From Caenorhabditis remanei (taxonomy: Eukaryota > Nematoda > Chromadorea > Rhabditida > Rhabditidae): 64,000 bases of DNA. The notes below the pieces were generated by a model. It did not search any database and was not told the origin of the DNA. It saw only the letters and a list, made by a program, of their open reading frames with translations. A program made the translations under genes and the position numbers. Positions within the stretch are counted from its first letter, which is position 1; each line of letters begins with the position of its first letter. The stretch lies in assembly GCF_010183535.1 (NCBI RefSeq), contig NC_071328.1, positions 9,610,001 through 9,674,000 of the forward strand, in the 5' to 3' direction. This document shows, one piece after another, positions 26,814-62,088 of the stretch.

Positions 26814-28631
26814 ATGGATGTCGATTTCCAAACCATACACTGCAAAGAATTCGATCAGAAATGTCTTCTTGTAAAACTCTCTGATGGATCTTCCAAGACA
26901 TTCAGTTTCAACGTCAAAACCATGGCATTCGAACCCATGTGTTGCTCCGATTGTGCTCCAACTCAAATGGACAGCGACTTGACTCCACGTCACACGGAAT
27001 GGTGTCCTCATACCAGAAACACCGTCGTCTTCGCTTATAATCATGTTCTCAAAATGGAACTCAAGTATCGTTTCGACTGTGAATCCGGAAGTTTCCATGA
27101 GATTGAATGCAAGGAGTGTCATCTGAATCCAGCGAAAAGAACTGATCCAAAACAAATAGTTTTGGTTGCAACATCACCAAAATCAAAGAGAGCCATCGTG
27201 TTGACAATGAGCAAAAAAGAAAGAGTTCAAAAGATGCAGTACGATGAGAAAGAGAAGAAATATGTGGATATGGAACCGACTCCAATCAAATCTTTAACTT
27301 TGAGATCAGTCGTTGTTCAGGAGAAAGGTGAGAAGGGCGATCAATTCAAGCGGGTACTAGTTTTATTCACAATCTTTTTCCATTATCCCTTTCAGTTTCC
27401 TTGACATCCAGTCTCGTTTCCTGACTCTTTCCCAGAAATTATGACTGAAGAACATTCAACATTTCGTCCATTTCTTTCACTAATCAACTACTATAGCTAA
27501 GATTGTTACTTAGTATAAAATTAGGATATTTTGTGAGAAAAGACATGTTATTTAAACAGTGAACGTTTACTTATCGGTCCCTTTCGATGCTCATGTTGAG
27601 TTGACCTGATGATTTGTCCTACTAGAAACCGTTATTCAAATACAATCTCGGAAATTATGCAAGTTAATTAGCACCGTTGCGAATTGCGTAATAACCGGTA
27701 TTAGGACTGAGCAATTATTATTTTTCAGAAACTGAAGATGTCACTCAATTTTTGGAGGATCTCGACTTAAATGGAAAGAAAGATGAAGAAGAAGCGCAAG
27801 TGATGGAAAGTGATCTTATCGCAATGTACAAAGAGAAAAGTCGTGTTCTTCCGAATGAAATCATCCTTGTTGCCAAGAATCGACATACTGGAGAGTTTGG
27901 AACATATGTGTTCGATAGATACATTCACCAATTCCTTCATGTTAACCTTCCGGATATTAAAATTGATTCGGAAAGACGCCAGATTCCTCTTCAACAATGC
28001 ATCGTGTTGACGATGAGTTCGAAGACTCAAGAAGGAATTAATCTTCAACATAAACCAGGACAAGAAGGAGTTCAGAAGTATATGTATAATCGCCAATTGG
28101 GAATTTTCGAAGCGATGAAAGAAACATTTGTGATTCAAAAGGCAACAGACATTGATAAATGGATCAAGAAGGTCTTTGAGGAATGCCGTGAGTTAGGGAA
28201 TAACTGGCATTCAAGAGAATTATATAGAAAACTCATTGATGAGACTGGGAGATGTTCTTTTTCAAATTGTGATATTTTCAGCTTGCTACACACGAAAAGT
28301 TCACGGAATCGTCGATTTCTTGAGAAATGTCAAGCCGTACATGATAGATCAAACAGGTGTTCAACAAAAGAAACCAGAAGTTCAACTAACAGGTTTGCCC
28401 TATTCATTTAACCTCACTAATCCCTATGAACCTTCAGAAACGGCGACAAAGGAGGAAGCGATCCCATCGGGTATCACTTCGACTAGCGGCGTTTCTGTAG
28501 AGACCGACTTCTCTGAAGACACCGACAACAGTGAAGACTCGTCCGCCTCCTCGTCATCCGATACGGAGACCGACGACTCGGATTCATTTGAAATTATTTC
28601 TAGTGAAGAACTCACTCAATCAAAAGAGTAA
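26814..28631 (+). CDS. CH-CC family member A
   Basis: Three exons, 26814-27327, 27729-28187 and 28282-28631, joined in phase 1 each time, give 440 residues. I do not recognise the family; it is defined here from its local copies. A first half-module ends in C43-x2-C46. A full module has C63-x-H65 (WCPH) and C98-x2-C101 (CKEC), followed by a beta-rich half with SPKSKRAIVL. A second, cysteine-poor copy (LIAMYKEKS ... TYVFDRYIHQF) follows. The C-terminal 60 residues are an acidic Ser/Asp/Glu/Thr tail ending in LTQSKE. No signal peptide or membrane segment is seen, so it is probably cytosolic or nuclear. A 45-nt segment at about 28392-28436 has splice-like ends and may be an optional in-frame intron. 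Confidence 0.78.
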
Positions 28632-30866
28632 CTTATCTCTAATGTCCTCAAAATGTAACATAATACTGTAATTTCTCTGTAGATACTCAGACTTCCCCCC
28701 TCTGACATATATGTAGATATTCTTTTGTTTCTTCTCTAATCTTGACATGTACTGCTTATAAAGACTGTGTACAATATCTTGATAAAACATTATAAACCTG
28801 TCTCTCAGAGATTACAATCCCCCCTTGTGACCCTATTTTTGTTCTTCTGAAGAGAACTGTGTGCACAAAGAAACACAGCAAATATGGATGTGGACAGGCG
28901 ATAATGAGTAGATGACGTGGCGATAGTCCTTGACATAGTGCAAATGGTAGATAGAGTAGGCTCCCAAGGCCTTTATATGATGAACGATTAAACTAGAGAA
29001 GACAATGGACAAAATGGATTATGCAACACATTAGAAGGAAGAGTGGATACTGTAATATGACACAAATCGTCTTGGAGGATACATATGGAAACACAGATTT
29101 TGAGAGACTACTGTAATACTTGAAATACCCACACAAAGCTGAATCAAAATGTCATGTTCTGAGAGCTAATAATTAGAAAAAGTTTAAAAAAAACTGTGAG
29201 AACTAATAGACCTTGTGAATATCTCAATAAGACAGAGATATTCCTTCTTCAAAAACATTCTGTTAATTAACAATCTCACAGAAGATGAGTGACGTCAACT
29301 GCCCAACAGGTGATCGACAGAATACGAACTACCCAAAATTTATGAAGGTTAGTCCCACATCATACTGATTTTAGGATCAGGGTTTTATGAAAAAAGAAAA
29401 GCAACTCAAATCTGATGACTGTTCAAATAATCTTCCGAACGAAATACAGAATACCACTTGACAAGATTCCCTTCCTCCTTTTTGCCAACACCGACTTGAA
29501 TAAACATTTTTGACCGCACCTCGGATTTCTTGTCACTTCGAAGACGTAGTCTTGGTCTTTGCCAACAGGAAGAGTATGACAATAAGATTGCGACTTCACG
29601 TTCTGTATAAACGGTATCATAAAGACAGCCCAACTGCCACAAATTCGAAGTTTCAATACACCGACTACTTCCAGACTTTCTAGGAATGAGTTCTAGTTTA
29701 CAACTGGATCTTCTCTAAAATTACCCGTTTGCGATAAGATCTTGGGAATCATGAAAACGTTTATAATTGAGTTTCGAATGATTCTAATTCTTAGTTCAGC
29801 TCAAACTTCACTGCCTAATATCTCAAAAAAATGAACGTTCTCCCCACTGCTACCGTATCCACCATATTTTTTCTAGATTCCTGTGTTCTCTCGTGCATAA
29901 TAAATGTCACATTTTCTGTGTGACCTCCTCTATTTTTCTCGTTTTCCCCCTCTCACCCAAATCTACTGACCCGCCAATACAAACCAATATTCCCCCGTTC
30001 GCCCACCTACCACTGCGTCTCTTCATCTTCAATGCTATTCTCTAGAAGGGACTTTCTGATGGGGAGGAGTAGGTTGGGAAGGAGGAGGGTTATGGTCCGC
30101 CTTATTCCATCTGTCTCCTCTTATTCTTTCTGAGAATTCACAGCTCATTCGTTTGCATTCAACTGTCGACAGCGTTCCTTGTCGTTCCTCTATTATCGGG
30201 TTTTCACAAATCATCCTTTCAGTCTGACGACTATTTTCATTTCCTTTCCATTGTCTTGTTTTCCTTTCAGTCACCACTTTCATAGAATTGTCTCCATATA
30301 TTGCTGTTAAGGATAGTTCACCATATCTAAGTAATCCGCAGTGGACGTGATAGCTTAACGAGTCATTTTTGCGTACTGTTCAGCTTGTTAAGTTAGATTA
30401 CGTCACTGACACCGGTGCTTACTACGTAATCCTTTGAACTCCTTCACCACTGTTGCGCAGTTGGCGGTTCTGATATCAATGAGTATGTTCTTCATTCGGA
30501 CGTTCATCTTAATCCACTCACCACCTGTCGCAATAGCACCCTGTTCATCGTTCTGTGATGGGATGCTTTACAATGCTTCGCTTGTTATCTATTCTTTGCT
30601 GGTTCTGTTTTCTATGCGTTTCCAGCCAAAAAATTCTATCTTCCCATCTAACCATTTCCGTAAGCACTGGACTTTTCTTTTATCGGTAAAAGTTTTTATA
30701 GATCTTATAGTGTTCGTGACTTGAATCAGTATTTGAAGTTCCCATTCTTTAGTTCACAAGCATAGTTATTCTCATCTTTACCGTCTCTTCTTTCGAAAAC
30801 GTCTCCACATTTCTACTTCTTTCCAGAGACATATAACCCCTCTCTAACTTGAAAAGGATCTTCATC
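28632..30866. other. Intergenic between family members A and B
   Basis: About 2.2 kb. No gene can be supported. A short start-like exon at 29285-29347 (MSDVNCPTGDR...) has a GTTAGT donor but no convincing partner. An opposite-strand 77-codon frame at 29423-29656 has no recognisable feature. TACTGTA motifs occur at 28661, 29046 and 29105. An acceptor (TTTCCAG, near 30825) precedes gene B. Confidence 0.5.
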
Positions 30867-61155: not shown

Positions 61156-62088
61156 ATGATAACTTTACAGGAATACCGTCGACAAAGTTACTTTAAACAT
61201 ACTGTATCTCTATCTACTCGGGAGATGCGAAGACGATCGAAATGGGCAAATAAACGGTATTACGGATTCCACTGTGACTCGAAGAAACAATCGAATCACT
61301 TCAATTATCGATTGCAATTTTTCTGCAATAGATCACGAGAACAAATCGATACTCCTCTATCGGCAAACATAATTTCATTGACAAATCATGGATTTGAATT
61401 TGATGAAACAAGACGTGGATGGAGGCATATTATTGTTTCTGATTCTAACATTCATGACTTTAGTGACGCATACATTTCAATCGAAAAAGTGACTGAAAGA
61501 GTGAATGGAGCATACTTCAATTGGAATGGTGTCGCATATCCAGCTGGTTGTGCATTATGTTTAATGGATCTTGGAGAAGGAAACGAATTGACAGATAATG
61601 ATCGAGACGTTTTCCTTGAGTTCGCGAGAGATGAACAGTTTTCGAATCTTCTCAAGAAGATGGAAAGAAGACTGAAACCACTTCAACTTCAGGAGTCTGA
61701 TTTAATGATTTTGTATGCAACTCGTTCTCAAATTCTCGATGATTTCGTTATCTTTGCTGAAAATTTGAAGAATGGAAGTATCGAAACGTTCATTTATAAC
61801 AAGGAACGTTACGGTCTTCAACGAGTTCGAACAGATTTGGAATATGACGAATCGAAGAATTTGGAAGACGGAAAACGAGTTCTTCTTTTCATGACTTATG
61901 ATGAAACACGTGGTTTTGTTCAAGCACTTACTGTATATCGAACAGAAAACGGATCAATTGAGAAGAAGATTCTGAATGTGGAAGAGAAAAGATTCGAAAT
62001 TATTCCAGAAGAACCGATTTTATGTGATGAAGAAATAGAGATATTCCAAGAAGAAACTGAAAATGGATTCGAAGTCATAACAAATTGA
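61156..62088 (+). CDS. CH-CC family member G, diverged
   Basis: Read from the ATG at 61156 (MITLQEYRRQSYF) this is one exon of 310 residues. A good acceptor (AACTTTACAG, ending at 61170) sits inside, so an upstream exon such as 60816-60932 may be the real start. The C-terminal half matches family F: DLMILYATRSQILDDFVIFAENLKNG ... ETFIYNKERYGLQRV, then a beta-rich half ending in IIPEEPI. The cysteine pairs of the module are lost. The N-terminal half is Arg/Lys-rich (REMRRRSKWANKRYYG) and then less clear. There is no acidic low-complexity tail. The CH-CC relationship is clear only in the C-terminal half. Confidence 0.7.
   Translation: MITLQEYRRQSYFKHTVSLSTREMRRRSKWANKRYYGFHCDSKKQSNHFNYRLQFFCNRSREQIDTPLSANIISLTNHGFEFDETRRGWRHIIVSDSNIHDFSDAYISIEKVTERVNGAYFNWNGVAYPAGCALCLMDLGEGNELTDNDRDVFLEFARDEQFSNLLKKMERRLKPLQLQESDLMILYATRSQILDDFVIFAENLKNGSIETFIYNKERYGLQRVRTDLEYDESKNLEDGKRVLLFMTYDETRGFVQALTVYRTENGSIEKKILNVEEKRFEIIPEEPILCDEEIEIFQEETENGFEVITN

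Follow-up and report, generated by a model that had tools for sequence, protein, structure and literature searches.

The window analysed here is a stretch of 64,000 nucleotides of Caenorhabditis remanei DNA (contig NC_071328.1 of assembly GCF_010183535.1, positions 9,610,001 to 9,674,000), in which seven genes, named A to G, encode a shared repeat and form one family. A first-pass annotation, made from the letters of the sequence, had grouped these genes by a common module with a Cys-x-His (CxH) and a Cys-x2-Cys (CxxC) motif. This grouping was assayed with a hidden Markov model profile built from six modules (one from A, two from E, one from F and two from a paralog on another contig, C3), and the genes that had not been used in its construction were recovered with scores of 177.9 (B), 86.8 (C), 49.2 (G) and 29.4 bits (D). 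By comparison, the top score reached 10.5 bits among 2000 shuffles (500 each of B, C, D and G), did not exceed 0.7 bits with reversed sequences, and was 6.7 bits for the best segment of the window outside the seven genes (812 stop-free segments of at least 40 codons). Since B, C, D and G score far above these controls without being part of the profile, the seven genes are members of one family and the repeat is real. All seven carry it, with two corrections to the first description: E sits on the minus strand, and the repeating unit itself is shorter than the module proposed earlier, which corresponds to two successive copies of it.

The unit has a length of approximately 45–50 residues. In A, E, F and the C3 paralogs, the full module consists of three units, R1-R2-R3. 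The homology of R1 and R2 is clear (hhalign probability 93, E 4e-8), whereas that of R3 is weak (probability 15 for R1-R3 and 3 for R2-R3). The features of the seven genes are collected in Table 1. For A, the spliced model has 100% identity with the deposited C. remanei protein GCK72_002028; the other spliced models are our own, with uncertain ends in three of them (3' in E, 5' in F and in G).

Table 1. Members of the repeat family and their features (positions in the window; aa, amino acids)
Feature	Position	Strand	Description
Gene A	26814..28631	+	425 aa; five blade-like units, then acidic Ser/Asp/Glu tail
Gene A, complete CxH/CxxC set	27003-27119		In unit 2; C/CxxC in unit 1
Gene B	30867..36165	+	1666 aa; N-terminal unit block (first exon), three further unit pairs, predicted coiled stretch between, acidic tails
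Gene B, complete sets	32515-32634, 33264-33383, 33675-33794		One per further unit pair
Gene B, 15-bp tandem repeat	34330..34486	+	Encodes Cys-Ser-Asp-Glu-Glu (CSDEE) units
Gene C	37967..41415	+	1087 aa; N-terminal layout as B, 39% identity over part
Gene C, complete set	39688-39792		
Gene D	44309..47033	+	768 aa (our model); most diverged long member
Gene D, complete set	44927-45040		
Gene E	51187..52514	-	Two full three-unit modules (six units); last exon uncertain
Gene E, complete set	51792-51902	-	
Gene F	58858..60410	+	One three-unit module; C/CxxC without His; acidic tail
Gene G	61156..62088	+	R2+R3 pair near C-terminus (49.2 bits); neither half of the Cys/His set

The long members are further linked by direct comparison. 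Gene D matches the N-terminal block of B (E 1e-12), and a C. brenneri relative, P0006, shares 41.9% identity with B over 905 columns. The acidic tail of B, which follows the repeat part, contains 14 CSDEE copies, and Asp and Glu make up a fraction of up to 0.65 over 60-residue stretches of this protein. In P0006, six CSDEE copies are found, and a Cys-rich acidic stretch resembles the CSDEE region of B. A 123-bp tandem repeat of 3.1 copies also lies in the acidic tail of B (35248-35633).

Structure prediction was performed for two proteins, A and E, and evaluated from lists of strands. The unit is predicted to be a four-stranded antiparallel meander that resembles a propeller blade, repeated five times in A and six times in E, with values of the predicted local distance difference test mostly between 70 and 92. 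Foldseek searches of the PDB gave best E-values of 2.3e-6 and 1.6e-6 to proteins which we take to be propellers, and most of the matches listed belong to this class. Searches with viral models returned a mix of fibre and propeller proteins among the matches listed and were of no further help. The idea of a beta-trefoil, prompted by the presence of three similar units per module, was set aside in view of the four strands per unit and the propeller matches. YD/RHS-type repeats, suggested by the sequence 'GRL..I.YD' of R3, had no such Pfam match and were absent from the fold matches listed.

These data raise the possibility of a true closed beta-propeller family, too diverged for the known profiles, with six blades in E, in the C3 paralogs and in the first exon of B, the Cys/His residues being a local decoration. 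The four-stranded units, their number of six in E and a match list made up almost entirely of presumed propellers are in agreement with it. However, the template modelling (TM) score is approximately 0.1 and the root-mean-square deviation above 20 Å over the whole model; the aligned ranges in VIA fit only one or two units well, and their order, as read from the range ends only, is partly unsuited to a simple ring. The unit number, three in F and five in A, also argues against a closed propeller, which we regard as somewhat unlikely.

The seven complete CxH...CxxC sets that the first-pass annotation had named were all found by pattern search in the genes stated, three in B and one each in A, C, D and E. 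They had been presented as one feature of the repeat; the sets are present, but they mix two positions within a larger repeat, the first unit in D and E and the second unit in A and B. The two halves are separated by 30–36 residues in six of the seven sets and by a shorter gap in C. Against the six such sets in the folded parts of A to G, 2000 shuffles gave 0.02 on average and never more than 1. Outside the genes, the pattern matches twice more (21762-21866 and 22392-22496), in short open segments to which the family profile gives no match.

To describe the association of the two halves, 41 units were collected from 12 of 20 proteins (i-Evalue below 0.2 and a start near the start of the profile), with P0001, which is A, and P0002 to P0006, P0008 and P0009, as close or orthologous copies, left out, and with the degenerate units of B and C missing. 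Both CxH and CxxC occur in 12 of these units, CxxC without CxH in 10, neither in 19, and CxH alone in none (Fisher P 8e-5). The first Cys is present in all 22 units that have CxxC, and CxxC is found in none of the 13 units that lack this Cys (P 1.5e-6); both P values are nominal and overstated, the units being related by descent. The set therefore belongs to a single unit. A site spanning two neighbours, with CxxC supplied by one unit and CxH by the following one, was considered and rejected, no coupling being observed in 15 neighbouring pairs (2/11 versus 0/4, P 0.52).

Conservation among the orthologs of A follows the same residues. At a mean identity of 61%, C44, C47, C64, C99 and C102 are kept in 4/4 orthologs and C10 in the 3/3 that cover it, the His of the set is kept in 3/4, and C17 and C43 are kept in none. 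The within-unit coupling of the two halves, together with the conservation of the Cys residues in the orthologs, speaks for a metal site and lends support to the zinc binding suggested earlier; a bound metal is a likely prediction from the Cys/His pattern.

A more specific proposal is a new zinc module, in which one metal would be held by the CxH and CxxC of one unit in a fold similar to a zinc ribbon. It would account for the strict co-occurrence of both halves within the unit and its absence with the next unit, and for the short helical turn, similar to a zinc knuckle, that is predicted at CKRC of E. In the E model, however, CxH occupies the turn that follows strand 1 and CxxC comes after strand 4, with tight turns between, and a plain meander with three intervening strands would place the halves at opposite ends. 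This geometry weighs against any site closed within one unit, including that of the interpretation we favour below; added to the overstated P values, it leaves the zinc-ribbon-like module rather doubtful. The ligands of a site could also come from different units or chains.

Alternatively, the Cys pattern could be a relic of ancestry, or a disulfide or redox feature, with no metal involved. A few independent losses may account for the coupling, and in six units the first Cys is found without CxxC, as such a relic would allow. On the other hand, the Cys residues of the site are kept whereas other Cys of A vary, and a crude hydropathy scan, which detected neither a hydrophobic N-terminus nor a membrane-like stretch in the family proteins, suggests intracellular proteins. 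Disulfides are unusual inside cells. We consider this explanation improbable.

The first-pass annotation had been unable to match the module to a named domain, and this is borne out by the absence of any match above cut-off in Pfam-A, NCBIfam and PDB sequences. In ten pieces, every Pfam-A model stayed below its cut-off, the lowest E-value (0.0075) falling on an acidic stretch, and in ten proteins none gave an E-value below 0.01. With NCBIfam, nothing was found at E-values of 0.1 or less, and among PDB sequences no match had an E-value under 0.6. No propeller blade repeat of Pfam was matched at E up to 1 in the ten pieces or up to 0.5 in the ten proteins; many propellers escape the profiles of known repeats. 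The RYYR-CCHC model (PF23674) was rejected, as it matched gene E only, with an E-value of 0.18 and 12.2 bits for a cut-off of 27, and none of the other members tested. Keyword searches of the literature (accession names, RYYR-CCHC, and beta-propeller with nematode-specific terms) yielded no description of the family in titles and the opening lines of abstracts.

Protein search returned ten homologs, of which eight are from Caenorhabditis (five from C. remanei and one each from C. tropicalis, C. briggsae and C. brenneri). In the C. remanei genome, members beyond A to G were located on C1, the contig that contains the window and that we take to be chromosome I (8.40 and 8.46 Mb), and on C3 (two at 12.25, two at 12.32 and one at 12.36 Mb), which brings the family to at least 14 genes, a lower bound given by single-protein genome searches. 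Among three near-identical C3 paralogs, the ratio of nonsynonymous to synonymous substitution (dN/dS) is approximately 0.18–0.23, indicating that the proteins are kept by selection. The protein search gave no C. elegans member, but it reaches only relatives sharing exact five-letter words and is not evidence of loss. T01G9.2 of C. elegans, guessed as a relative from gene order, was dropped, this name designating the C16ORF70/MYTHO gene in the literature. As far as found, the family appears to be restricted to Caenorhabditis.

Taken together, these data lead us to propose an undescribed, Caenorhabditis-restricted family of intracellular blade-repeat scaffolds, with some units metal-stapled and with acidic tails, a proposal for and against which we hold the chances to be evenly balanced. 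Its building block would be the predicted blade-like meander of 45–50 residues, arranged as triplets (R1-R2-R3), as pairs or in longer blocks, with disordered acidic tails behind them. In some of the units, CxH in the first turn and CxxC after the fourth strand are kept together and would most likely hold a structural metal (zinc), which would stiffen its unit or the contact of that unit with another unit or chain. The lack of a leader or membrane stretch, the acidic tails and the blade repeats make an intracellular binding scaffold the likeliest role as judged from sequence: the blade surfaces would bind a partner protein inside the cell and the acidic tails basic partners. A stronger version, in which a new repeat class has each blade metal-stapled by CxH and CxxC and arranged in threes and sixes in a single genus, one member carrying a CSDEE tail that may bind metal, seems unlikely to us.

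Other features were observed in the window. A katanin-like AAA ATPase gene, presumably mei-1, contains a fold-back element just before its AAA exon (56733-57118; arms of 150 nt, 95% complementary, with 86 nt between), which as read brings an in-frame stop into the gene. An AAA exon at C1:5670764-5671438 is 98% identical without this element in the match, which raises the possibility that the copy in the window is a duplicate that has been damaged. Protein tyrosine kinase domains are found at 20319-20786 and 49761-50288, the latter preceded, as read, by a putative SH2 domain and followed by a putative tyrosine phosphatase (approximately 53.8–55.1 kb, minus strand). On the minus strand, chitin-binding CBM_14 domains lie in open segments at 13114-16384, and a PUD1_2 ('up-regulated in long-lived daf-2') domain at 24199-24876 (E 3e-52).

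If the proposed scaffold family is correct, an undescribed domain family, missed by the current libraries, would exist in the genus of a main laboratory animal, and would offer a test case for a blade-like unit multiplying, gaining or losing metal sites and changing number within one genus. Even if it were a diverged propeller family, names and boundaries would be provided for at least 14 C. remanei genes now labelled 'hypothetical'.

Among known systems, RYYR-CCHC is approached through the weak match of gene E alone. Like CHCC and zinc-ribbon fingers, the family unit can carry two candidate ligand pairs, both being present in 12/41 units; unlike in these fingers, the pairs are approximately 30–36 residues and three strands apart, and no zinc-finger model scores above cut-off. 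From beta-propellers, the family differs by the lack of a Pfam propeller match, by its variable unit number and by its Cys/His sets, and its Foldseek matches show no closed ring. Yet propeller proteins are its top Foldseek matches, and the tandem units of 40–50 residues with four antiparallel strands, here predicted, are those of the WD40, kelch, LGI1 EPTP and DDB1/SF3B130 propellers.
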